This document shows, piece by piece, positions 16,094 through 64,000 of a stretch of DNA of 64,000 nt (the stretch's first letter is position 1; each line of letters opens with the position of its first letter). Source of the stretch: Chytridium lagenaria (lineage: Eukaryota > Chytridiomycota > Chytridiomycetes > Chytridiales > Chytridiaceae); the NCBI GenBank assembly GCA_025449115.1, contig JAHLKC010000048.1:1-64000 (forward strand), given 5' to 3'. A program made the translations under genes and the position numbers. The notes under the pieces were generated by a model. That model did not search any database. It saw only the letters and a list, made by a program, of their open reading frames with translations, and had not been told where the DNA came from.

Positions 16094-17769
16094 ATGAAGA
16101 TCCCATCATCCGTGGTCGCTATCCTCTCCTCCTTGCTTGCCGCTGTGGGTGTCAACTCACAGGCAGCATGTGCAAGACTTCCCCCAGAGTGGGCCTCACA
16201 ACCTCCTTTGTCGCAAACCCTTCCAGCGGACACTCAATCTCTGGAGTTCTGACCATTGTCGATGACTGTACTTTCACCGTCAGCCAGTTTACTCAGACTC
16301 CCGCTGGGCCTGATGTCTACTTTGTAAGTCAATTAGTACCTAACTACCGTAAAGTTCTTTACAGTTAACGTTTTGTTGTAGTGGGGAGCACAGATGGATC
16401 TCGATCAGAGCTTCTCAGCAACGGTCGCCGTATAAGCGACTTTAAGATTTCTGGTCAGTACAGCAACCCGACAGAACTCACCATCAAGTTACAGAGTGGG
16501 CAGTCTTTCGATAACTTCAATGTGTGAGTTGGATAGCGACAATGAACGCCTTTCTCATTTCTACTTCATTTCACTTTTATTAACTATATGCCAGCATCTC
16601 CATCTGGTGTGAGGCTTTTAAGGCCGACTTTGGACAGGCCAGTCTTCCTTCTCCCACGCTCCCAGCGCCGACATCGATGCCGATTGACCTCATCAACGGC
16701 TACACCAACTGCCTTACTCTCCTCAAGGATCGCCTGAATCTTTACTGGAACCACCCCTTTGCGAACGGCTCCATTTCCATGGCCATGCATGCTTCTCTTG
16801 AGTCCGACCGCGGATGGTTTGCGTTTGGCATCAACAACCCTAGCTTGAGTGAAATCTCCATGATCGGTGCCGACATTACTCTTGCAGGATACGACACCAA
16901 GGCAGCCCCTTCATCTTCCCTTATCGTTCCACTACTCGTCAGCAGTGCGACTACTCTGCGACCTCATCCCAAGTGTTTGCCCAAGGTCCAACGAGACATC
17001 GTCTGTTCAGCTCCTCCACGCGACTAGAACCACCTCTAACATCTACACCGTTGCGTTTTTGCGCCCCACCACAAACACTGGAAACTTCCACCCCCTTAAT
17101 GTCAACTCTACCGCCGCTCGACTCATATGGGCACTCGGACCCATTGCCGAAGATGCCTCCCGCCCTGTTGTCCTTTTCCACAAAGACGCCAGATCATCTT
17201 CCAACGCCCCGTTTAACCTCGCTGCAACCACAAGCGCATCATCATCGCAAGCCTGTTCCCCCATCGTTGCTCAATCGTCATCCCCCTCAACAAACACCAC
17301 CACGGCTCCCTCGGCATCTCCACTGTTGCCAACTCAACCAACTCGCCATCACCCTCGGCCCAAATCCTAACTACCCTAACCCACCAGGATGGGGTGTCTC
17401 ATACCGCATCAACGGGTTTGAATCACCTATCCTTCAAGTACGTCGAGGCGTCAATTACACCTTCACCATCACGTCTGGTGAAGACCATCCACTTTACCTT
17501 ACCTCCTCCATGGTCGGGAGGGTTGTCTGAACCAGGCCGAGAAAATCTTTGCTGGTGGCGCGTCGTCGTTTGGAACGCCTAGCAAACCTTTTGAGTTAAA
17601 GTGGACACCGGATGCATCTACCCCTGACACACTGTACTATCAGTGCACCACTCACCAGAAGCTTGGATGGAAAATTGTAGTTTTGAATGCTCCCGCGTCT
17701 GGGGCCACTTTGACGTCCATGTCGACTCTTTCGATTTTGGTTGTCGTGCTGTTTGCTCTTGCTTTTTAA
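16094..17769 (+). pseudogene. Skeletor-like secreted protein: DM13, DOMON and C-terminal cupredoxin-like domain, frameshifted
   Basis: The ATG at 16094 gives a signal peptide (MKIPSSVVAILSSLLAAVG...SQA). Next comes a DM13 domain (VGLTTSFVANPSSGHSISG, CTFTVSQFTQTPAGPDVYF, WGAQMDLDQSFS, SDFKISGQYSNPTELTI) split by introns near 16324-16380 and 16524-16653. A DOMON domain follows (NCLTLLKDRLNLYWN...GWFAFGINN). A Ser/Thr-rich linker leads to a cupredoxin-like end with SGEDHPLYLT and YYQCTTHQKLGWKIVVLN (Cys/His/blue-copper-like layout), then a hydrophobic GPI-type tail. At least four single-base shifts break the frame (after CCCCCA near 16188, at GTATAAGC near 16430, near 16900-17020, and near 17230 and 17520). 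DM13/DOMON proteins are cytochrome- or redox-like extracellular proteins. Broken gene or sequencing error cannot be separated here. Confidence 0.7.
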
Positions 17770-18751: not shown

Positions 18752-21700
18752 CTAATAAACAACGTTAAAAGTAGGCGAAAAGATGGTATCCCAGTCATTC
18801 TTCCCAACAGGCGACCCAACACGTCCGAAATGCTTTAATGCCGTGAACCGAACCTGATAAGGCCCAGCAGGGAGCTTGACGCTCTGCGCGCTCTCACCGG
18901 TAGCGTTGGAGATGACACGTCCAGTCCAGATGAACGCGGTGGGTTTGGTAATTCTCTGTCCCTGAGTGGGGGAGTTTCTCTGGAGGGTGTTGAAGGAGAG
19001 GGTGTAACCATCCGTGGGGACAATGGCGCCAGTAGAGTCGGGGTCGAGGCTGAGCGCCATTTCGGCGAAAAGGTAGAGGGAGGTTTCACGCTTGATACCG
19101 AGAGCGGCGAGGGATTTCCAGTCTTTACCCTTGTAGAAGGCTTCGATGCGACCGATGCGGGAGGTGGTGGAGACAACGGGGAGGACAATGGCACCAGTGG
19201 TGAGGTTCAGGTTGGTGTTGGCGACGAGGGGGTGAAACCGGAATCAAAGGCGTAGAGACCAGTGGAAGCGGTAGCGTTTTCGGCGACAGGGATACCGAGT
19301 TCCTCAAGACCACCGGCGGCGAGGGGTAGGACAGTGTCAAATTTGGCGGAAGTGCGGGACCAGATGGGTGCGGCTCTCCAGTCACCGACGAGACCAGCGT
19401 AAGGGACAGAGGCGAGTTTTTGCTCACCAGCAGAGACGACAATGTAGCCAGAGTAGACGGGGTAGAGACCGGCGATGGCGTTTGCTGGGGGCTGGACGTG
19501 GACGTTGAAGGAATGGGATGCACCGGCCTTGAGGGTAAACTCGAGGGATGGGACACGGTCGTTGTTGCGGGAGAAGAGAATGGAGGCGTAGTCGGCGGTG
19601 TAGGTTTGTTCATCGGCGGTGAGGGTAGAGTCGTCACCGGCGGTGAAGGGAGTGACGAGGAGAGCGGGTTGGTGCTTAACGGTGTAGGAGATGTCAACGG
19701 TGGCCTTGTTGGTGACGGTGAGCTCGTAGTGTTGGGCAGTGTTCTTGGTGTCGTTGAAGGCGAGACGGGAGGGGTAAACGACAGTTTTGGTGGTGATTGC
19801 GCCGTAGGCGTTAATGAGACCGGCACCCTGGTAGGCGACAGAGTCGATCAAGTCGGTGCCATATTTCTTCTGAGGGTTAGCAGTGTTTTGAAGGGCAGTG
19901 CGGAGCTGGTCAAAGGTGGGACGGTTGCGACCGTAAGCCTGAAGAACGAGAGCAGCAACACCAGCAGCGTAAGGGGAGGCCATGGAGGTACCAGAGAGCG
20001 AACGGTAAGGGGTCCTAGAGTCACCTTGAGAGAATTTGGAGATGGTGGAGAAGACTTCACCACCGATACCACCGAAATCAGGCTTGATCTGGAGTTCCTG
20101 GTCGAGACCAGGAGAGGAAAGGTAGAAATGGAACCGGCAGTGGGGTTCTTGAAGAGACGAAGAGCCTGGCTGACGACAATCTTGGGGGTCTGACCGGCCT
20201 TGATGGCGGCAATAATAGCCTGACCAGCAGCACGGTCCGTGGCGAGGGAGGGGATGAGAGCGGATCCGGCAATGTTTGGCACAGATTCGGTGTTGGCGTA
20301 GAGAATGCAAGCGACGGCACCAGTAGCAGCGGCGGTGTTGCAACGACGGGCAGAACCACCAAAGGCGGTATCTCCCCAACGGATCAAAAGAGCCTTGCCA
20401 GCTAAAGTTGCAAGAGGAAAAAAAGTGAACGGAAAGTTAGTATTTAGTCCGCATAATGAACAGCGTAATTTAAAATGGGGATAAGTAACTCACTAGCGTT
20501 AACGGTGGAAGGGGTTGAACCATCGTTTGCTTGTCAGTCTCATCAGCAGTCATGTCATTGACAATCACATCGTACTCCTTGCCAAAATCAAAGTTTCCAT
20601 TGTTACCACCAAGATAGTAGCTGTATTCACCACCAGCAACGTTCAAGAATGGCTTGGCGCTTCCAAGTTTTCGAAAGATGCCACTCCAAAACCACCTTCA
20701 GCGGTACCAGGGGATCCACCAGCAAAGATACCTTGCTCTCCATTGTTACCATTGGATCCCAAAGACAAAGTGACCGATCTCACCAACACGGGTAGCGGCA
20801 ACGGCATCGGGTCTATTAAAGGTTTGTTTAAGATCAACAAAGGAAGAAGCACGTCTATGCCAAAGGAAAAAAAAAATGCTCTTACGAGTCTGCGTAAGCG
20901 GGTCCACCACCGATGGACAAGTTGATCACATCAGCGCCATCAGCGGCAGCCATGTAGATGGCCTGAGCCATAATGTCGGTAGAGGTACCTCCAGCACCGC
21001 ATCCGAAAACCCTGTAGCACCCAAAGTAACTTCGGGGGCGACACCTTTTACAGAAAAAGAAGAGAATAGATTTAGTTTGAGTCAGACGATCGAAATAGAT
21101 TGTTTTGAGTGAACAAAAGAAAAATAAAGGCTTTGTCTATAGCAAAAGAAGGAAACAACATATTTACCAGTGAAGGGGATGTCAGAGGCGTAAGCGGGGT
21201 CGGAGATGGACCTGGCATCCGCACCAACAATACCAGCAACGTGAGTACCTATTTTTACGGTCAAAAAATGTAGGATAATGGGTTAGTGGTCAGTTGGGTG
21301 GCTATATACGGGTCCAGCGAGTAAAGTGAGAGAGGACTTGTCAATAAGAAGGCAAGCCTTCCCAATTGTTACACAGAATGCACGCAGACAAGATCGCCAT
21401 TTTGAGACACGCGCAAATGGTAAAAAGGGAAAGGGGCAGTGGGAGGCTCAAGGGTTTAAGGAAAGGATAGAAGGGTAATGATGCTGATGGTCAGAAGGAG
21501 AAGAAATAACTAACCGTGACTGTTAAGAAAATGAAACAAGTTAAGTGTTAGAGTTCGATGGCAAGTGAGGAAAGTTAAAATGAAGAAAGACAATAGGAAG
21601 GAAGGAAGTAATCTACCTGCTAGAAAGAACAGTTATCGGTGGGGTCAGCATCGGGCTTGAGGTTGTTGTTGGAGGCATCGTAATCGTCGCCGACAAGATC

Positions 21701-44039: not shown

Positions 44040-45870
44040 TCATAACTTGATACTCTCTCCATACAACGCAATCAACACCATAACCAACCACCCAACCCAC
44101 AACCCCAAATGTTGCGCCAAAACCCTCGTCCAACTAAAAGGATGAAATCTCACTCGCCTTCAAAGTGAACTTTGACTTGACCTTCACCTCCTTCTCGTCC
44201 TCACCAGTCTTGCTTTCTTCATTGCACGTGACAATGGAATGCACATTGGTGAGTTCAGGGAGAAGGTCGGCCATGGCTATGTAGAGGAAGACACCGGCGG
44301 CGATGGAGAGGATGGTTTCTTGGGCGGTGGAGAGGGATGGAGTGGAGGAGACGAGGATGCCGATGGCCATACCGATGAAGGCGGAGAGGTTGGAGGCGGC
44401 GTTGAGGAGGGCGGCACGGACGGCGGTGAAACCAGAGGAGTAGAGGATAGCATAGTCGGCGAGTTCGTGGGGGAGTTCATGCTGTGAGGGGATTAAAAAA
44501 AGTTTTAGTTGAGCGTGGATGGAATTGGGTGATGAGAAGAATGGAGGTATGAGGATGGAGTCATTACCAGTAAGACGGCCATGGAGGTGGTGACGCCGAA
44601 TTTTGTGCTGACGCAGAAGGATGCACCGATGGCGAGTCCGTCAACAAAGTTGTGCAAGGTGTCGCCAACCAAGATCAAGATGGCCACAGGTCTCACGCTC
44701 TGAATTTCCTCCCAGAGAGTCATTTTCTTGATCTCCTTCTTATCTCCATCGCCATCCAAATGCGAGTGATGGTCGTGATTCTCGGAATGCGCATGAGCCA
44801 TGGTGGAATGCGAGTGCCCATGCTGATGGGACGTGTTCTTGTGGACACGCTTGGAATGGATGTAACGAAGGAATTGCTCAGCGCTCCAAAAGAGGTAGAT
44901 GAAGGCGTAGACTTTGGACATGACGAACACGTACCAGTATTCTTCAGTGTAGTTGATGGCTTGACCGCCGTGATCGTGTTCACCACTGTGCATGTGGAGT
45001 TTCAGGATCTCTGGGATGAGATGGAGCAAGGAATCGGCGATCAAGGTTCCTGCACCCAACGCGATGAGGAAGGAGAGGAGGAGGTCAGCGGTGAATGGGT
45101 TTGAGCGGAGGAGAGGGACAAAGACAATGCCAATCATGCAGATGAGAGTGACGATGGTGATGGCGATGATGGAGTAGAGCCAGGTGAAACCCACAGAGGG
45201 TTTGGAGGATCTGGAGGCTTCGGCGGTCGCGTTGAAGGAAAAGACTTTGGTTTTGCAGAGTTTCGCAGCGGAAGCGTAGACGAGACCAGGGGACATGCGT
45301 TCGAATTGGGTGCGGTTCAGACCGCGGGTGGTGTTGAAGCCGTAGATGGTCATGAGGTCGAAAGGGAGGAGACACTGATATTTGTAAAAGAGTAGATGAA
45401 CAATATTGTGAGAACATATTTGGGATGATGTATTTTAAGAAGAGATGAGATGTTATGACTTACGGGGTCGAATGCAGTCGAGTTGGTCTGCCGTCTCGCA
45501 ATCCTCAACTCTTCATGACGTTTCGAGAACTTTGCCATCCCATGATCATGACCCTCATGCGAGTCTGCAGCTTCACCAGTATTGGCAGGAATGATACCCA
45601 TGGACTGGTACACCTCGACAAGGTTATCGAGAGACCAAGACGCGAGCCGAGCCAGCGCCAGAGCCATAGGTGGCAAAGATGTCGGCTGTGAAATCTGCGG
45701 GCTTGAAGGTGAGGGCTACTGGGTTGAGGACGTGTTCAACAATGATGGTGCCTGATGGAGATGATTCGCCGTGGTTGTGACCTTCGTGAGAGTCGCCCTC
45801 GGCGGCATGTACGGGTGAGATGTGGAGAGTGAGGAGGGCGAGGGTGAATGCGAGGATGGCTGTAATGGAG
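44040..45870 (-). CDS. ZIP (SLC39, LIV-1-like) zinc transporter
   Basis: This is a divalent-metal importer. The N-terminal extracellular part is His-rich (EGDSHEGHNHGESS, DSHEGHDHGMA). The membrane domain includes FLIALGAGTLIADSLLHLIPE, a His-rich cytosolic loop (HQHGHSHSTMAHAHSENHDHHSH), the helix IV motif HNFVDGLAIG and helix V HELPHELADYAIL, the binuclear metal site of the family. Introns lie near 45466-45372 and 44572-44483. One base is lost near 45630 in the N-terminal part. One inserted T near 44148 gives an early TAG at 44134, whereas the fragment at 27.1-27.5 kb keeps the last helix, which would end at about 44040. The first exon or start codon was not resolved; a signal-like AILAFTLALLTLHISPVHA lies at about 45858-45802. 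Confidence 0.9.
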
Positions 45871-52129: not shown

Positions 52130-52743
52130 GATTCTTATAAATGGTTTCTGGTCGTGTCTTCACTGTGGTCACTTTCAGCGATGTGTAAGAAATGGCACTG
52201 CAACGTCAAGTATCTTAATAATACTAAATACTTGGTCGGGATAAGTGAGAGAATTGGATGTAGGCCCTAGCTCCACCTTCAAGATCAATTGTGAAATCAA
52301 GGTTTAAGTGGAAGTTTAAGAGCCTCTTCCCTAAGATCGCCTAATGCTTTAAACAGAAAAACAGAGGATTGAGGACTTCTTTCGGTGCCTGAATGTAAAG
52401 AACCGCAAGCCATTAGCTTCAGAGAGTGAAGCTTGTAAACCCCAACGCTACCCGCCCACCAGTCACACACGCTATTGGTAATCTCGCATTCACAAGATGC
52501 TCATGATCACCTGCACCATCGACACCCTCATACTGCGGAACTTTCCTCTCCTTAAAATACCCAATGGTGAAATCGATGCCGAACAACATCGGACATATTA
52601 TCGTTCTGTCCATGAAGGTTGATGGATGGATGGATGCCTTTTGGCCTCATCCTTTGGTGAAAAATTTAATTAATCTAAGTTTACAGATACCATCAGACAG
52701 TGTAGCACCTGCAGAAATCATTTGAAGGAGTGAAAGAACAACG
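52130..52743. other. Divergent intergenic DNA
   Basis: No supportable gene; a short GGAT repeat lies at 52620-52636. Confidence 0.4.
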
Positions 52744-54507
52744 ATGGCAGCTTTGGGGCTATCGGATATTGAGGTTTTACCGTTAGAGCTATTTGGATCC
52801 GTCATTGTGCATCTCCATCCGTACAAGTCTAGGCAGCTAAGAAGGCTTTCAAGACGATACCATTCGTTTATCGACACAGATGACTTTCAATTTGCTAGAA
52901 ACAACCTCTTGGCTTTTTTCGCTGAGGAGATTAGGACGGAATACGGCGGTGGTGTATTGGCGCCGCCAGGCTATGACGAGAGAGTGCAGAGAAGATCAAG
53001 GAGGCAAGCAGAGCCGGATTCTCTTCCTTCTCTCAGTCAACTGAATTGGAAGCTGCTTGGATCCTCTTACAGGGCAGCACTCATCTCCATTTTAAATTTC
53101 ACTTCAACCACTCTGCGCATGATCAACCCTGACTATCATGGACTGGCAGACACTGCGCCTCCAGGCTATGATATGTCGATGGATGACATGGCTCTGGACG
53201 CCCTTCGAACCGCAATCACCCTTTCTGAAATCGACTCAACCGCTGATGGCTGTTTTGTGTTGCAATGGGCCGCCACGAATACCGACGCAGATCTCTTTCA
53301 ACGCATCCTTGAAAGCACACCCGCAAATGGGTCTTCAAGAGCTCGGGACCGTGCATTTCATTTAGCTTGTCGATATGGCAAGCTCCCAGCTGTTAAGATG
53401 CTGTTGAATGCGGGTGTTCACCCCGCAAATCACGATAACGCCGGGTTACGGGCTGCGTGCAGTTCTGGACACAGCGCCATTGTCCGATTGCTTCTGGACA
53501 CTGGACGGGTATCGCCGTCGGCCTCCGATAACTTCTCCATCATCGCGGCTTCCGGAGCAGGGCACGCTGCAGTTGTCCGAATGCTATTAGATACTGGTCT
53601 CGTGGATCCCACGGAAAATGAGAATGAGGCGCTGAGGTCAGCGAGTTTGAACGGACACGCTGATGTCGTCCGATTGTTACTTATCGAGGAAGTGGACGAG
53701 GAGTGGGTTACTACGGGTGACGCAGTCATCGCAACTGCAAACATTGCCTCTGGTTCATCGTCCTTGTCTTCAACCTTCCCTTCGTCACCGGAAGGTCATT
53801 TTGCTCCGCGACCATTAATCACTCTTGCCGATGAGCCCTCCCGTCCACCTCGACGCACAACCTTAATTCCCCGACCTGGAGTAGATGCTTCGGCGTACTC
53901 CAACTATTCAATCAAAATGGCCTGCTTCTACGGTCACACTGAAGTTGTGGAGCTCCTTCTCTCCTGCGAAGGCGTGGATCCGTCGATAGAGGATAATTCA
54001 TGTCTTCGGAATGCTGCCGAATTCGGCCATCTGGCCATTGTCCGTCTCCTCCTCGCCCATCCACGTTGTGATCCTTCCGCCAACAATAATTATGCCTTAC
54101 GCTCTGCAGCGGCGCGTGGCCAAGCCGAAGTTGTCAGGGCCCTCCTAGATCATCCATTAGTCGATCCAACATGTGATGGACATGCTGCCATAAGGGAAGC
54201 TACAGAGAACCAGCATTCTGAGGTTCTCAGAATTCTTCTTGACCGATGCTTTCCGGCAAACGAACCTCAGGGCCCTTTGCCTCCCGGATATATCGTGGGG
54301 GCCGAACTGTCGGATACTGGTTGTGCAGGGTCTTGTTTGGGAATGAAAGGAAGACGGGGGAGTGCCCATACAGCGGCGCCAGCAGCGGAAATTGAGATTC
54401 GTCATAATGGCAATCGCGAGGGACCTGAAATGGATGATGAAAGGGTGGCGCCAAATCGGAGGAGTAGGAGATGGAATCCGTTTAAAATTTCTTGGAAAAG
54501 GCAGTGA
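52744..54507 (+). CDS. F-box-like, ankyrin-repeat protein, single exon, intact
   Basis: A 587-codon uninterrupted frame. The N-terminus LPLELFGSVIVHLHPYKSRQ fits an F-box-like helix pair. About residues 205-330 carry ankyrin repeats (RAFHLACRYGKLPAVKMLLN, AALRAACSSGHSAIVRLLL-like units). A Ser/Pro-rich linker follows, then about residues 395-525 carry four more repeats of the SANNNYALRSAAARGQAEVV type. The C-terminus is basic (RRSRRWNPFKISWKRQ). F-box/ankyrin proteins usually select substrates for SCF ubiquitin ligases; the substrate here is unknown. It is one of the few long frames in the window without any indel. Confidence 0.85.
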   Translation: MAALGLSDIEVLPLELFGSVIVHLHPYKSRQLRRLSRRYHSFIDTDDFQFARNNLLAFFAEEIRTEYGGGVLAPPGYDERVQRRSRRQAEPDSLPSLSQLNWKLLGSSYRAALISILNFTSTTLRMINPDYHGLADTAPPGYDMSMDDMALDALRTAITLSEIDSTADGCFVLQWAATNTDADLFQRILESTPANGSSRARDRAFHLACRYGKLPAVKMLLNAGVHPANHDNAGLRAACSSGHSAIVRLLLDTGRVSPSASDNFSIIAASGAGHAAVVRMLLDTGLVDPTENENEALRSASLNGHADVVRLLLIEEVDEEWVTTGDAVIATANIASGSSSLSSTFPSSPEGHFAPRPLITLADEPSRPPRRTTLIPRPGVDASAYSNYSIKMACFYGHTEVVELLLSCEGVDPSIEDNSCLRNAAEFGHLAIVRLLLAHPRCDPSANNNYALRSAAARGQAEVVRALLDHPLVDPTCDGHAAIREATENQHSEVLRILLDRCFPANEPQGPLPPGYIVGAELSDTGCAGSCLGMKGRRGSAHTAAPAAEIEIRHNGNREGPEMDDERVAPNRRSRRWNPFKISWKRQ

Positions 54508-54856: not shown

Positions 54857-57800
54857 ATGGTATGGGATACATATGTTCCTGCGCTGGTCTGCGCTCTCCT
54901 ATTGCTTGTTGTCAATGGAGCAACATCGAACCCTCTCCTAGCTGATTTGGTTGAACCTGACTTAAAGCCTCCCACTTGCCTGACGAATCCCAACAAGTAC
55001 GGATGGGAAGGGTTTCAGAACTTTACCGTAAGTAGATTAGCTGTCGCTATAACTTAATTGAGGCTATATGAAGCGCGCCAAACGTCCCATCATCATCGAG
55101 CAAGCTGGATGGGACTCCGCAAGGATTGCATCCAGGATCATGCAGATCATGTTATCTGAGGTCATGGGCTTTCGGGTAAAGTATCAAGAATTCCAAGGCG
55201 GTGTGGCAGCCACCGTTCCTCGTCTTAAAGCTCAAAACGTCGTCGACGTTGCGATGGAGCTTTGGGCTACTCCCGACGGAGCGTGGTTGGTTTCTGCCTT
55301 TCGCATTTGTTATTTGAGCATCCCTAGTGATAGCCTCTGAAATATTGGGCTTAGGCAGAACTTCGGCAGCTTGGGTTACCAAGGGCGATCCGGATTGTAA
55401 GCTCGCCCAACAACGAAAAAAAGTCAATTCAACCCTAAGTAATACCTTTCGTTTGAATAGATACGTTCCATCGAGTCTCGTTGATGCCTATCCTGAACTA
55501 AGCATTGACTTTTGGCGGTTTATGCAAAGCCCAATCGCCAGAAACCTTTTCGTCAAGTCAGGAGAGGGTCCCGAGATACGAACAGCTGACGGCGGATACG
55601 TATGTGACAACGTATTGAGAGGTTGCCAGAAGGGCCGTTACTTTCCGTCATGGTATAAAGAATCAGAAGCGAATAACTTTATAGAGATTTGGAGTCCATT
55701 TCCTGGTTGGAGGTAAAGTTTCTTCTTCTTTTTGATATAATTAATGGATCCCATATAAAAGCAAATGGCGTTATGAAAGGCTTATCGATGGCTTAAAGTT
55801 GAATGCAACCATCCGTTGGCTCGGCAACGATCATGACAACATAGTGGCTGCTTACCTCAAAAACAACTCAGCACCGGGAATTATTTTCTATAGCTGGTAG
55901 ATATATTTATTAATTTATTACCCTTTTCTGAGTACATCAAGGATTCCTACTGCTTTGTTGCTTCGTGAGCCTCTTTCACTACAATTATATGCTCATATCT
56001 TTATACACAAATCATAGAAACAATGCTACACGCCTCATGCTTCCCTTGACTCTTCGGGTGCTTTTACCAAGCATAATAAAGGTTGGTGCTGAAGCTTCTC
56101 GTCTATATTAAAGTTTTGCAGATCCTCAAAATAACGTGCTGTTGGTGGATGAGCCCCAGTTTAGTCTGCTTAAGGTTTGTAATGGAACGATTTTTTTATA
56201 CTTAATACTCTATGAAAGGCTGGCACTTTGAAATTTCCTCAAGAAATTTCCAGATGCTGCCGAGTTTTTTGTCTAAATTTGAAATACAGTCTGTGTTTAA
56301 GCTATTCTTGGTTTTTCTCGAAAAGTCATTAATGTTCACTAAACTATCTCGACGACTTTGACAATACTAGGGATGATGAAATAAATCTGATACTTCTCGA
56401 CATTGCCAATAATATTTCCTACACGAATTCTGCGTGCGACTGGCTCCGGAAAAACGAGGCACGATGGTCTTCATGGATACCCCCACCGCCCACAACATAT
56501 GGTACCCTTCAAAATTTTATTTGCGCTTTTACTTCAACGATTTCTTAGAAAAATGCCCGTTCGGAACTGGCAGATATCTTTCGGATGGCCTTGGACTATG
56601 CCTTACGTGTCCGTCCGAGTCTTTTAGCTGGTAATTTGTCAGTGCGTGTCAATAGATGTTAATATATACCTTTAGGAAACATAATAATTCGGGACCGTGT
56701 TCTCAATGCCCTTTAGAAGGCATTTGTCCGGGTGGGGATGTTGTGAACGTCCAGAAAGGCTATTTTTTAGCCCGACCCTCGAGTGACAAACAAGTCCACG
56801 CCAGAGTTTTACTCTTGCCCTGATCGTGAAGCGTGTTGCCCTAGTAAGTGTATCGTGGTTCTTTGTGCATTTTATTTTGCATTCCAATAACGTACATGGC
56901 CTTTTATTGCAGCTGGAAATTGCACATATCAAGTAACTGCGATATTGGTTTCACAGGAGTTCTTTGCACCGAATGTATCGATCCTACAACATCTAAATGG
57001 CGGGGTAAATGTATTTCGTGCGAAAAAACTGGCGCGAGTCTCTACCTCCTATTCGTTCTCAGCTTCGTCTCCACATTTGTCGTTCTATTCATCCCACGTC
57101 ACGAGCTTCCCACTGTGGACCTCCTCTTCTTTTTCTTTCAGTGATTCAGCTTATTTTCGGCCCATCAATCGACGAGCTTCTCGGATTTGGACAGCTGAAG
57201 ACATTTCTGGCACTTACGAGTCTTGATATGGACGGTATTGCCGTGGATTGCCCGGTCAAAGTCTCGGGGGTCGGGAAACTTTTGTTTAGATTCATCTTAC
57301 CGCTTGCGTTTTTCGTCAACGTGGGGATACTGTACATGATATTCCGGCTACTAAGGAGATCGTCAGTGCCAGTAGAGAAAATTTCCCTTACTACATGAGG
57401 GTCAATCGGTTGAGGCAGTCTTTTTCAAGGCTCTTCTTTCCATCAGCACGTTTGCGTTAATGCCACTGGTGGAGGCAAGTGTTGCCCTTCTAGATTGCCG
57501 CAAAATTATGGGCAGCTTTGTTTCTACACCGCACCAGCAATTCAATGCTATAAGGGGAGCCACGTCGGCCCCGTTTCCTTTGCCATTTTTGTCATCTTAT
57601 TGCTATTAGTAGCCCATCCGATCGCGCTTGTCAGTTTGTTGATGAAAATGAAGAAGGAGAATCGTATAATTTATGAGGAGAATGTGGATCTCCCATTAAA
57701 GGATCAGTTACTACAGAACCTCTACCTTCAGTACAAGCCGAATTTATGCTGATGGAAGCTTATTTTATTATTGAGCGTGGATTGATCGTTATTTTTTTTA

Positions 57801-58319
57801 CCGTTTTCCCTGAAGGTGCGTTTCTTTTGCAAAAACTCTTTGAGCTGACCTTTTGTAGAAAATCGCTGGAGCGCATTTGGATACATCATTCTTTTTGGCT
57901 CTATTATGTAATCAAATTAGTTTTCCTGTTTTAGTTGAAATCATTCACTTGTTAACTTACTAATTTTAAACGTTTTTTATCCAAGGTCCGTTCGTCTCTA
58001 CCTCCAACCCTTTCAGGACAAACTTGAAGACTATCTTAATCGCGAGATTTCTCTTTGCTGGCTCATGCTTCTCGCCTTCAAATATACCTCTTTCGGATCC
58101 AATGACCATGACATTGCACCCTACGTCATCGCCATTATGTTCCTCCCACCAACTCTTCACGTGCTCCGTCTAGTTATCAGCTACTCTAGTGGTAATAGTC
58201 GACACATTGCCAGATCCAAGGACGAAATTTATGAGGCGAAGACGACCAAGAAGGGTGGATACGATAAGAATGATCCTGAGAGAGTGCCGTTGAGTCATGG
58301 GAACCTGAATGAGATTTAA
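54857..58319 (+). pseudogene. Receptor-like protein, OpuAC-type binding domain + Cys-rich stalk + multi-pass membrane domain; array copy 1, frameshifted
   Basis: Exon 1, 54857-55027: signal peptide MVWDTYVPALVCALLLLVVN, then NPLLADLVEPDLKPPTCLTN. Exon 2, from about 55072: KRPIIIEQAGWDSARIASRI, LSEVMGFRVKYQEFQGG, NVVDVAMELWATPDG. The binding domain continues through IDFWRFMQSPIARNLFV and KGRYFPSWYK. Cys-rich stalk about 56540-57030. Membrane part about 57030-58200. Tail KNDPERVPLSHGNLNEI. Breaks not shared with copy 2: one A lost in TTTCAGTGATT (about 57140, stop), GAAAATTTCC (about 57378), ATGAGGGTC (about 57400) and near 57745. At least a dozen short introns. See copy 2 for interpretation. 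Confidence 0.75.
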
Positions 58320-58960
58320 ACCTGCGTTAGGTGATAGATTGGGTGCGCTTTAAAAATAGCCCAATGTGAAAAAAACGGAATAAAAAGTCTCTTCCTAGCA
58401 ATTCCTTCTAATTTATCAAAAAAACTCCGCCGATCATACTGAATGCCGTGATATACATATACTTACTCTCATCAATTAAAAGCTGGTTTTTTTTTTTGTC
58501 TCACAGCCTTCCTTGACATTTATTTAACAGTATTTATAAGAAATTCAAAAATATGGATCATTCACCGCTATACCGCTGCAAAAAATTAACTTTTTTATCT
58601 AATTTACTCCGTACAATACACGATATAGAAATGGGATGGATAAGATGATTATAGGTAGAATAATAATCCACACTGGTCACTAAAGTTTCGTCCTTAGCTG
58701 AGATTATGGACGCTATGCAGACGTGCAACATCTTGTAACCTTTGGGAACGCATAAAGTGACCCTAACTGCAGGTTAACGGCCTATGAGATAGTCCTTCAC
58801 GTGTAAGAGCGATAGAAAACCTGTTCACGCATTATCATATTTTAAGCATTCATAAGGACACTCTTTGTACATCAGGAAGCATTCCTTTTTCTAGGAATCG
58901 GGTTATCACCTCCGCGGGTCCGGGACCCTGGGATACACCCATCTGTCAGCATATATGTAA

Positions 58961-58980
58961 AACACGAGTCAGCTCGTGTT
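58961..58980. repeat. Short perfect inverted repeat
   Basis: AACACGAG-TCAG-CTCGTGTT: eight paired bases around a 4-nt loop, followed by further CACGTG-containing DNA. It could be a binding site for a dimeric factor. Confidence 0.6.
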
Positions 58981-59037
58981 AAACACGTGTAGTTATACTA
59001 TTACATGTGTGGTAGTATGGGCGGGTTTATTGGAGGG

Positions 59038-59153
59038 ACGCGTCATTTTGATGGGGACGTGACGCGCGTGTGCTCTGTCCCCTTGGGTTGATGATGGGTA
59101 CGTTGGTGTTCATTTTCTCGTTCTATATTTGACGCGTTTTGTGTTTTACGCGT
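59038..59153. promoter_or_regulatory. Cluster of three ACGCGT (MCB-like) sites
   Basis: ACGCGT at 59038, 59132 and 59148, within 116 bp and flanked by more CG-rich ACGC/GCGT words. ACGCGT is the Mbp1/Swi6-type cell-cycle box in fungi; use here is inference. Confidence 0.35.
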
Positions 59154-60027
59154 CTCTCTCCTTTCTTTTCTTCATTTTCTTTCCTTTTCTCTCTTATCTT
59201 GTAACGCATTCACACGTTACGTAGTCCTTTCTTGATGACGTGGCGGCGGAGGGCCGTCTTTCTTCTTACTTTATAGCGCGTTTGCGCGTTTTGTGGCTGG
59301 AGAGAGGGCGGGACGGAAGGAGGACGTATTTTTCGTCTTACCTTGTGACCCGAAGGCGCCGTGTGTCTTTGATGAAGCTTGGACGTGGCAGGGGAGGAAG
59401 TTGGAGGGCTTTTCTAGGGAGAAGAGTTAGCGAAGTAAAGACAAAAGTTGGACTCTAAGAGACTGCATACCTATTTAGTCCAGACGACCACACATGTGTT
59501 CGATGGTTTTCAAGCGATGAGGCTGTCAGGCAGCTAAAATGCCTCGGGCAGAGAAAAATCCTCTATCTCTCGCCTCCGACGTGAGAAAAGCGTATGCTTT
59601 ATTTACCTCAAGTAAAAATACCATTTATACTTATCTAACGCTCAAAGTCTTATCTTCAATCTCTGTCGGATCTAATTCTACATCATTCTCAAAAGAAAAC
59701 ATGTGTGTTTGTCATTGTTAGTATTTATCCTTTTTATGGCACTCGGTGACCTGAATAAAAAGTTAAATTTTTGAAGATGTACAGCCGTTAATGATTCGTT
59801 GGCAAGGAAATCTCTATATAGATATCCTCTGTTTATGCAATTCACTATTTGCGCAAAGATGGCGATCAACTTCGAATCGCTAGAATCCCTTATTTCGCAT
59901 AAGTTACTGCCCACTTGAGATCGACACTACACTGTGACGGATGAGGAAAATGCCACTCCTGAAGATCTCTTTTAGACCGTTGCTGCACATACCTTTTGCC
60001 AACATTTTCTGTTATCAATAACTAACT

Positions 60028-63000
60028 ATGGTCTGGCATGCTCCAAATGCCCTCGCGCTTGCCTGCGCTCTCCTACTACTTATTGTTAATGGAGCAATTG
60101 CGAACCCTCTCCTAGCTGATCTGGTGGACCCTGACATAAAGCCTCCCACTTGTCTGAAGAATCCCAACAAGTATGGATGGGAAAGCTTTCAGAACTTTAC
60201 CGTAAGTCCTTATACAAATAAGACATATTACTTGTTTGGGGTCCTTCCCGCTATCGCTGTGATGTAATCTGAGGTTATATATAGAGCGCCAAACGTCCCA
60301 TCATCATCGAGCAAGCTGGATGGGACTCCGCAAGGATTGCATCTAGGATCATGCAGATCATGCTATCCGAAGTCATGGGCTTTCGGGTAAGGTATCAAGA
60401 ATTTCAGGGCGGTGCGGCGGTCACCGTTCCCCGCCTTAAAGCTCAAAACGTCGTCGACATTGCCATGGAGCTTTGGGCGACACCTGAGAATTCTTGGTTG
60501 GTTTTCTTTGTAAGCATGGAGATTCGCTCTGACAAGTTCAACACAGGCACAGCTTTGGCAACTTGGGCTACCAAGGACGATCTGGATTGTAAGGATGAGC
60601 TATTTTCTCACGTATTAATGCTCCCTTTTAAAGATATGTCCCGTCGCGCTTCGTTGAAGCCAACCCTGAACTGAGCATAGACTTTTGGCGATTTATGCAA
60701 AGCCCAGCTGCAAGAAACCTTTTTGTCAAGTCCGGGAAAGGGCCGGAAATGCGAGCAGCTGATGGCGGATATATCTGCGATAATATTTACAAAGGTTGTC
60801 AGAAAGGCCGTTATTTCCCAGCTTGGTATAAAGAAGAGGAGGCCCATAACTTCGTGGAGATTTGGATTCCATTTCCCGGTTGGAGGTAAACTTAGCTCTA
60901 CTTTTTTAAATTATTGACGATTTGCTGTTTTTGGTTACAAGTAAATGGCATTTCGAAAGACTTATAGATGGATTGAAGCTAAATGCTACTATTCGCTGGC
61001 TTGGAAACAGCCATGAAGATATTGTAGCTTCGTACATTAGAAATAAAACTGCACCAGGAATCATTTTCTACACCTGGTAAGCTCATCCTACAACCACAAA
61101 TTTAATAAAACAACCTAATAGGATTCCTACAACCTTCGTGGCTTCGTAAGTTGTGCAAATAATCTTCTTTTCGTTATTCTTTTACCTTATCGTAAGTTTC
61201 CTTCTCACATAAAAACCTTCCATGATTTAGAAACAACGTTACTCGGCTTATGCTTCCTTTTGATGCTTCAGGAGCTTTCAATAAGCATATGCGAGGTGAG
61301 TAAACTCTTCATTGAAGCCTCTTGGAGTTTTATCCACCCAATAACAAAGCTTTGCAGACCCCCAAAATACCGTCCTGACTGTGGATGAACCGCAGTTCAG
61401 CTTGCTGAAGGTTAGAGCAGCCCTTTTTTACATTGCTTACTGTATAAAAGGGTGGAACTTCGAAGTTCCCACAAGAATTTCCAGACGCTGCTGAGTTCCT
61501 AAACAAGTTTGAAATTCAGTACGTATCTTCATTACTAAGCTGGGCTCAGGGGCTTTTTCTGGTTCTTGTATTTTAACAATTTGTAACGAAAGAGACGACG
61601 AAGTAAACCTTATGCTTCTCGAAATCGCCAACAACATCTCTTACACTGATGCTGCATGCAACTGGCTTCGCAACAATGAGGCGCGATGGTCCGCATGGAT
61701 CCCTCCACCACCGAAAACGTTTGGTAAGTTTCGTGGCATTTTTGACCTACCAACACAATTTGGTTAACATAAAATAGACAAATGTCCTACCGGCACTGGG
61801 AGATACCTTTTGGATGGACTTGGGATTTGCCTAACTTGTCCATCGGAATCCTTTAATTGGTAACTATCTGGTTTATGTTATATTTTAACTTTAAACTCAC
61901 GCACTACTTTGCAGGAAGCAGAATAACACTGGTCCCTGCACTCAATGCCCATTAGAAGGCATTTGTCCAGGTGGCGACGTTGTCAACGTTCAAAAGGGTT
62001 ATTACCTTGCCGATCCTCGAATGACAAACCGATCCACACCAGAATTCTACTCTTGTCCTGATCGTGAAGCGTGCTGCCCAAGTGAGTTTCGACCATTTTA
62101 AAACCAGCTCAGTCGCAAACTAATATATATTCAATTTAACTAAAGATGGAAACTGTACACTTTCCAGCAACTGTGACAGTAGCTTCACGGGAGTTCTTTG
62201 CACTCAATGCGCCGAACCAAACAAGTACAAATGGCGTGGTCATTGCATTTCTTGCGACAAAATCGGTGCAAGTCTCTACCTGCTCTTCTTTCTCAGCTTT
62301 CTCTCCACATTCGTCGTCCTGTTTATCCCACGTCACGAACTCCCAACTGTCGATCTCCTATTTTTCTTCTTTCAAGTGATTCAGCTTATTTTCGGGCCAT
62401 CAATAGACGAGCTTCTCGGATTTGGACAGCTGAAAACATTCCTTGCTCTTACGAGTCTTGACATAGATGGAATCGCCATGGATTGCCCAGCAAAACTTTC
62501 GGGGGTCGGGAAACTTTTGTTCCGATTCCTTCTACCGCTCGCGTTTTTCGTCAACGTGGGGTTACTCTATATGATATTCCGGCTTTTAAAGAGAGCAAAA
62601 GTACCTGTCGAGAAGATGTTCCCTTACTATATGAGAGGACAATCAATTGAGGCTGTCTTCTTTAAAGCACTCCTCTCCATCAGTACGTTTGCATTGATGC
62701 CACTGGTTGAGGCCAGTGTTGCTCTATTGGATTGCCGCAACATCTTAGGAAGCCTCGTTCTTTACACCGATCCAACAGTTGAATGTTTTGAATCAAGCCA
62801 CGTCGGCCCGGTTTCCTTCGCCATTCTCATCATTGTATTGCTTTTGGTTGTTCACCCAGTCGCACTTACTAGTTTTTGATGAGTTTAAAAAAACAAAATC
62901 GTATATCGTATGAGAAACACGCGGATCTTCCATTGACGGACCGTTTACTTCAGAACTTGTACCTCCAGTACAAGCCCCAGTACATGTTTATCGAGGCTTA

Positions 63001-63476
63001 CTTCATTATCGAGCGTGGATTAATTGTAATTTTCTTCACAGTTCTCCCAGAAGGTATATTTCTATATTCGAAGCAAGCTAATGAATATAATAGAAAACTT
63101 GTGGAGTGCAATAGGATACATTATTCTCTTTGGATCTATAATGTTTGTGCGTATATACCTACAACCATTCCAAGACAAACTCGAAGACTATCTTAATCGC
63201 GAGATCTCTCTTTGCTGGCTCATGCTCCTTGCCCTCAAGTATACCTCTTACAGAAGCCAGTCGTACAGCATTGCACCCTACGTCATCGCCATAATGTTCC
63301 TCCCGCCAACTCTTCACGTCTTCCGTCTCATCGTCAGCTACGTTAGAGGGAAAGGCCGCCGTGTGGCCAAATCCATGGAAGAAATTTATGAGGCTACGAC
63401 GTCGAAAAAAGTTGGCTATGACAAGAATGATCCTGAGAGGGTGCCATTGAGTCACGGGAATTTGAATGAAATTTAG
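60028..63476 (+). CDS. Receptor-like protein, OpuAC-type binding domain + Cys-rich stalk + multi-pass membrane domain; array copy 2
   Basis: Exon 1, 60028-60201, encodes a signal peptide and NPLLADLVDPDIKPPTC. The next exon begins SAKRPIIIEQAGWDSARIAS and shows the glycine-betaine/proline-binding (OpuAC, PBP type II) pattern: LSEVMGFRVRYQEFQGG, AQNVVDIAMELWATPEN. Binding-domain exons continue to about 61840, including WHFERLIDGLKLNATIRWLG. The stalk holds CPTGTGRYLLDGLGICLTCP, GPCTQCPLEGICPGGD, CPDREACCP, SSFTGVLCTQC and HCISCDK. The membrane domain begins IGASLYLLFFLSFLSTFVVL, then IQLIFGPSIDELLGFGQLK, LLFRFLLPLAFFVNVGLLY and later helices. It ends KNDPERVPLSHGNLNEI. One T is missing from a T-run at about 62875 (AGTTTTTGATGAG), breaking the frame between helices. 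Length is about 950 residues if joined. Function unknown: a ligand-binding membrane receptor or channel is the best inference. Confidence 0.8.
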
Positions 63477-63862
63477 CATGGATGGAACAAAAGTGGTTAT
63501 GCGGAAGTCAACTTATGTAGTGAATAAAAAATAAAAACAAAGGAAAAGAAAAGAGAAGAAAAGCTATGCAAACTATAGAATTTTTTAAAAAAGAATATAT
63601 TGATACAAGTATGAGGCTGAAAACCATTTTCAGGGTTATGAACGTGTTAATTAATCTAAAACAAATGAGGATTTCCAGTTTGCTCGCGGACAACATCTTT
63701 TCCTCCCAATGGCGTTATCGATCAATGGTAGTCTTTTTGGGAACCAATCCTTTCAAATGAACGTCTATCTTGAAAATCTCTCATTCCGGTCCAACCTGCT
63801 GCCGCAGAACGATTCATGCGAAACCGTAAACTATTAGCGCCGAAATTCCCAATTGAAGGAAT
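63477..63862. other. Spacer between array copies 2 and 3
   Basis: 386 bp, no gene. Much shorter than the 1.7-kb spacer between copies 1 and 2. Confidence 0.5.
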
Positions 63863-64000
63863 ATGGTGTGGGGTCCTCCATATGCAGTCGCGCTGGTTTG
63901 CACTCTTGTGCAGCTTCTTGTTGGAGCAATGGCGAATGCGAATCCTCTCCTGGCCGATTTGGTAAATGGTGACATCAGACCTCCAACTTGCCTCACGAAT
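63863..64000 (+). CDS. Start of array copy 3 of the receptor-like gene, cut by the window edge
   Basis: The ATG at 63863 begins MVWGPPYAVALVCTLVQLLV and continues ANPLLADLVNGDIRPPTCLTN, aligning with the first exons of copies 1 and 2 (signal peptide, PLLADLV, PPTCL). The frame is open to base 64000. Confidence 0.85.
   Translation, partial: MVWGPPYAVALVCTLVQLLVGAMANANPLLADLVNGDIRPPTCLTN

Follow-up and report, generated by a model that had tools for sequence, protein, structure and literature searches.

We examined a tandem array of membrane-protein genes at the end of a 64,000-nucleotide stretch of DNA from the chytrid fungus Chytridium lagenaria (contig JAHLKC010000048.1, positions 1 to 64,000; hereafter the window). 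Its members join a bacterial-type solute-binding domain, a cysteine-rich stalk and a multi-pass membrane domain in one chain, and the best reading of the sequence is an osmolyte receptor, possibly a channel. More specifically, we consider it somewhat probable that the protein is a single-chain cell-surface chemosensor for a methylated onium osmolyte, with a nine-helix domain that signals inward. Two long copies were identified on the plus strand by stop-to-stop translation and DNA alignment, and gene models were obtained by splice-aware alignment guided by the homologs P0001 and P0003. The features are as follows.

54857..58319, plus strand: copy 1, whole gene, 15 exons with 10-11 small frame breaks
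55074..56501, plus strand: copy 1, solute-binding domain exons
56549..58319, plus strand: copy 1, stalk, membrane domain and tail, bearing most of the frame breaks of this copy
60028..63476, plus strand: copy 2, whole gene, 14 exons (P0003 guide), GT-AG introns, one frame break
60028..60201, plus strand: copy 2, exon 1, signal peptide and N-terminal lead
60285..61723, plus strand: copy 2, OpuAC/type-II solute-binding domain, exons 2-10
61778..62265, plus strand: copy 2, cysteine-rich stalk with 15 conserved cysteines, continuing into the large membrane exon
62274..63350, plus strand: copy 2, membrane domain of about nine helices, approximate limits
63351..63476, plus strand: copy 2, predicted cytosolic tail, ending ERVPLSHGNLNEI
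63863..64000, plus strand: copy 3 start, a remnant with exons 1 and 2 only, the stop in exon 2 lying past the window end

The introns of copy 2 are all GT-AG, and its single small frame break lies near 62875. As modeled, copy 1 follows the same intron plan with one extra intron and has 11 frame breaks with P0001 as the guide (one of them at the divergent signal-peptide start) or 10 with P0003; neither copy can be read without interruption in the present assembly. Both have the signal peptide, binding domain, stalk, multi-pass domain and tail that an earlier sequence-only reading had assigned to them, with 726 of 888 aligned residues identical, and the binding-domain motifs quoted in that reading are present in the translations. 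The tail ERVPLSHGNLNEI, which it called invariant, is identical in copies 1 and 2 and similar in P0001-P0004. Its proposal of tandem duplication holds for these two same-strand, full-length copies, but its count of at least three copies has to be reduced, as tblastn recovered only exons 1 and 2 of the third, with a stop in exon 2, in the 10 kb from 63801. Between copies 1 and 2, synonymous divergence (dS) was 1.21 and nonsynonymous divergence (dN) 0.101 over 885 clean codons of 899 (dN/dS 0.083), and the only in-frame stop within the 885 was the final one. The residue identity and the low dN/dS therefore reflect a coding pattern rather than chance. The two copies are also equally close to the outgroup P0001 (549 and 554 of 881 residues identical for copies 1 and 2, respectively). 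Because of this equal closeness and the low dN/dS, we regard the frame breaks of copy 1 as either assembly indels or very recent decay.

Judged by profile comparison, the N-terminal domain is an OpuAC-type (PBP-II) solute-binding domain, as had been claimed. The OpuAC family, PF04069, scored above its curated cut-off of 21.2 bits in six of the ten homologs scanned (P0003, P0006, P0007, P0008, P0010 and P0011), and the X-masked N-terminal part of the window's own protein scored 13.4 bits. A six-frame search of the genome with PF04069 returned no match, most likely due to the splitting of the domain across exons. A profile built from six homologs matched DmpX (9.3e-14), TmoX (7.9e-13) and OpuAC (5.7e-9), and a low-confidence full-length structural model likewise placed these proteins at the top, with 105-109 aligned residues. 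About residues 60-330 had originally been proposed for this domain; in copy 2 it occupies nine exons and extends to about residue 380. An aromatic betaine-type cage, anticipated in the sequence-only reading, appears to be present. Published work places W35, T64, W84, E113, W152, A153, Y200 and W202 in the DmpX pocket (PMC10030565, PMC8918994). In the profile alignment W35, W84, Y200 and W202 pair with W71, W122, Y270 and W272 of copy 2, which directly aligns three of the four cage tryptophans together with Tyr200. The fourth is presumably W226 (in PGWS), in a stretch outside the alignment; this site varies in the family, with Tyr in P0006 and P0008 and Asn in P0010. At the position of E113, the ligand-contacting glutamate, the family has Ser, Thr, Ile or Val. 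Across a 15-row alignment, in which P0013 is the row without an OpuAC domain, the final two cage residues are missing from P0005, and P0002 and P0004 are each gapped at one site. Betaine-like methylated onium osmolytes are a plausible ligand class.

The stalk of copy 2 contains 15 cysteines (residues 386-509), out of 24 in the whole protein, rather than the roughly 20 first estimated. In a comparison of 12 rows, from which P0009, P0011 and P0012 were left out as truncated, each stalk cysteine is retained in 11 or 12 of the 11-12 rows having a residue there. The stalk resembles NCD3G weakly (0.012 in P0013, 0.0056 in one of seven slices). Family-averaged hydropathy shows, besides a signal peptide, about nine segments, of which one is weak, and the model of the P0003 membrane domain has nine long helices (pLDDT 76.6, pTM 0.79), which refines the earlier description of several helices. 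All eight sequons of copy 2 fall at residues 56-471. Cysteines 582, 665 and 682 are retained in 12 of 12 rows and would lie in outside loops if the N-terminus is out; the topology is probably N-out/C-in. The fungal family PF06011, Flc/Pkd2-like transient receptor potential (TRP) proteins, gave sub-threshold similarity in P0001, P0004 and P0008 of ten homologs and in one of the seven slices, with a best score of 13.9 against a cut-off of 28.5 bits, too low for membership. No solved fold matched the membrane domain convincingly.

By the gene models, the fusion of the binding domain to the membrane domain is real and conserved. In copy 2 a single exon, 62146-63053, encodes the last part of the stalk as well as the first helices, an arrangement that speaks against separate transcripts. 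Searching about 5.8 billion proteins yielded 12 homologous gene models, the best of them 61% identical across its whole length, so that the fusion suggested earlier does occur in other chytrids; their source labels are Dinochytrium, Phlyctochytrium (two species), Zopfochytrium, Chytriomyces (two species), Obelidium and Rhizoclosmatium. Each of the 12 includes both the binding domain and the membrane helices. The stalk is partly or wholly missing from P0004, P0011 and P0012, part of one helix from P0008, and the C-terminal end from P0009 and P0012. All of the homolog genera, including that of P0013, belong to the order Chytridiales; the search picks up only relatives with exact shared words, and restriction of the family to this order is therefore provisional. 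Tandem clustering may recur elsewhere in the family, as two P. planicorne models have adjacent locus numbers and two Zopfochytrium models come from contigs of equal length.

The binding domain and the membrane module are each found with other partners. Elsewhere in the same genome (G000:C51:69400-71400), a relative of the OpuAC-type domain lies directly upstream of a class C seven-transmembrane (7TM) domain, with 129 of 332 aligned residues identical to the window's domain and two apparent frame breaks. The 7tm_3 domain of this C51 gene (7.2e-13, 52.7 bits) begins within about 60 bases after the binding domain. Six of the seven C51 introns match copy 2 introns exactly in position and phase (copy 2 has ten in that part). 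The shared introns therefore suggest that both binding domains derive from one intron-bearing eukaryotic ancestor, and they would be hard to explain otherwise. Conversely, a type-I ANF_receptor domain (6.4e-20) precedes the same stalk and membrane module in P0013, a single annotated model labeled Irineochytrium annulatum 'Metabotropic GABA-B receptor subtype 3A'. The genome has at least 52 places matching 7tm_3 and at least 14 matching ANF_receptor, counted as exons or gene parts; 52 class C 7TM matches represent a large receptor repertoire for a single fungus. A distant relative of the stalk and membrane module (67% probability) lies near a contig end (C206:443-2500), where any ectodomain would be off the contig.

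The domain layout of the protein has good support. In the mechanism that we favor, the signal peptide would export an OpuAC/TmoX/DmpX-like Venus-flytrap domain of type II, and the tryptophan cage of this domain would close on a methylated onium osmolyte of the glycine betaine, trimethylamine N-oxide (TMAO), choline or dimethylsulfoniopropionate (DMSP) class. Closure would tug the disulphide-rich stalk, which would in turn shift the N-out/C-in nine-helix domain and relay a signal inward, possibly via an opened cation pathway; that the membrane domain conducts ions is a guess. Such a protein would show a bacterial-type osmolyte-binding domain adopted for eukaryotic sensing and combined with two distinct membrane transducers, and would supply both a candidate betaine-type osmolyte receptor in zoosporic fungi and a candidate channel module for which no solved relative was found. 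We hold more tentatively the broader possibility of a Chytridiales family of ligand-gated channels with swappable flytraps (mostly type II OpuAC, type I ANF in P0013) mounted on a shared stalk and a nine-helix channel fold not recognised before; in the same genome, a class C receptor would be driven by a related OpuAC domain. If true, one osmolyte sensor would be wired to two unrelated transducers.

Other explanations of the locus were considered. The frame breaks in copies 1 and 2 and the remnant state of copy 3 are what would be expected if the locus were decaying and all window copies were functionless pseudogenes. However, assembly indels would yield the same picture, and neither the low dN/dS and single terminal stop in the clean codons nor the equal distance of the two copies to P0001 fits such decay, which we consider unlikely. 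The protein might instead be a one-chain transporter, its binding domain passing an osmolyte to the attached membrane domain for uptake. Among solved structures, the closest relatives of the binding domain do serve osmolyte importers, and a count of about nine helices would be in keeping with a transporter, but none of the solved transporter folds matched convincingly, and the occurrence of the stalk and membrane module beneath the unrelated ANF_receptor domain of P0013 fits a general transducer better; we therefore regard uptake as quite unlikely. No partner ATP-binding cassette (ABC) importer was found among 10 scanned open reading frames of the window (of 13 stretches of 220 or more residues), a scan confined to unspliced frames.

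A class C G-protein-coupled receptor (GPCR) with an OpuAC ectodomain, as in Allomyces, would have a diverged 7TM domain as its membrane part and signal through G proteins. The protein does have a Venus-flytrap domain, but the stalk that follows it matches NCD3G only weakly. In profile scans, 7tm_3 was not listed for ten homologs, P0013 or seven membrane slices, and the number of membrane helices is about nine. Profile-profile comparison against two 7TM domains from the same genome gave 0.3%, a weak test with a two-sequence profile, whereas the same membrane profile recovered the window's own membrane exon at 100%. By these comparisons the membrane domain appears to have no class C 7TM similarity, and we find this explanation very improbable. 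Ionotropic glutamate receptors have a PBP-II domain interrupted by pore helices; in copy 2 the binding domain is unbroken and precedes every membrane segment, which does not correspond to that layout.

Immediately upstream of copy 1 is a fully open ankyrin-repeat reading frame of 593 residues (52726-54504). Other open reading frames of the window encode a ZIP zinc transporter (44508-45434, minus strand), a subtilase with an Fn3-like domain (19210-20436, minus strand) and an At5g54830-like domain (16853-17527, plus strand). Elsewhere in the assembly, C47 and C250 contain equal-scoring HSP70 pieces, which suggests a duplicated or haplotype contig.

The description of the system as undescribed needs qualification. 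Class C receptors in Allomyces and other fungi are reported to carry OpuAC and other periplasmic-type domains (Krishnan 2012, PMC3251606), a figure legend of the same paper places GCC2_GCC3 cysteine-rich domains among the N-terminal domains of that receptor family, and type-II domains are reported on roughly half of the class C receptors of gut fungi (2016, PMC5168858). That fungal membrane proteins can bear a bacterial-type flytrap is therefore already known. The 2016 paper also describes gut-fungal type-II binding proteins, some with predicted helices, for which nothing suggests a ligand-gated channel. The nine-helix membrane partner is not named in the consulted parts of either paper, nor in related literature at the level of titles and abstract openings. 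Like the OpuAC-bearing fungal class C GPCRs, which the C51 gene resembles, the copy 2-type protein is a multi-pass protein of a eukaryote with a PBP-II ectodomain of bacterial type, but its membrane part has about nine helices and no 7tm_3 match, and its cysteine-rich stalk is missing from the C51 gene. With TmoX (TMAO) and DmpX (DMSP) it shares a fold family, by profile and by model, and aromatic cage residues; those proteins are parts of bacterial ABC importers, whereas here the domain is fused to a stalk and membrane domain, the ligand-contacting glutamate is replaced and a cysteine-bearing insert is added. In three of ten homologs the membrane domain shows profile similarity, below the threshold, to fungal TRP proteins (PF06011), which likewise have about nine helices, but the scores are far under the cut-off and the ectodomain is different. 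P0013 has the same cysteine-rich stalk and membrane module, but beneath a type-I ANF_receptor ectodomain.
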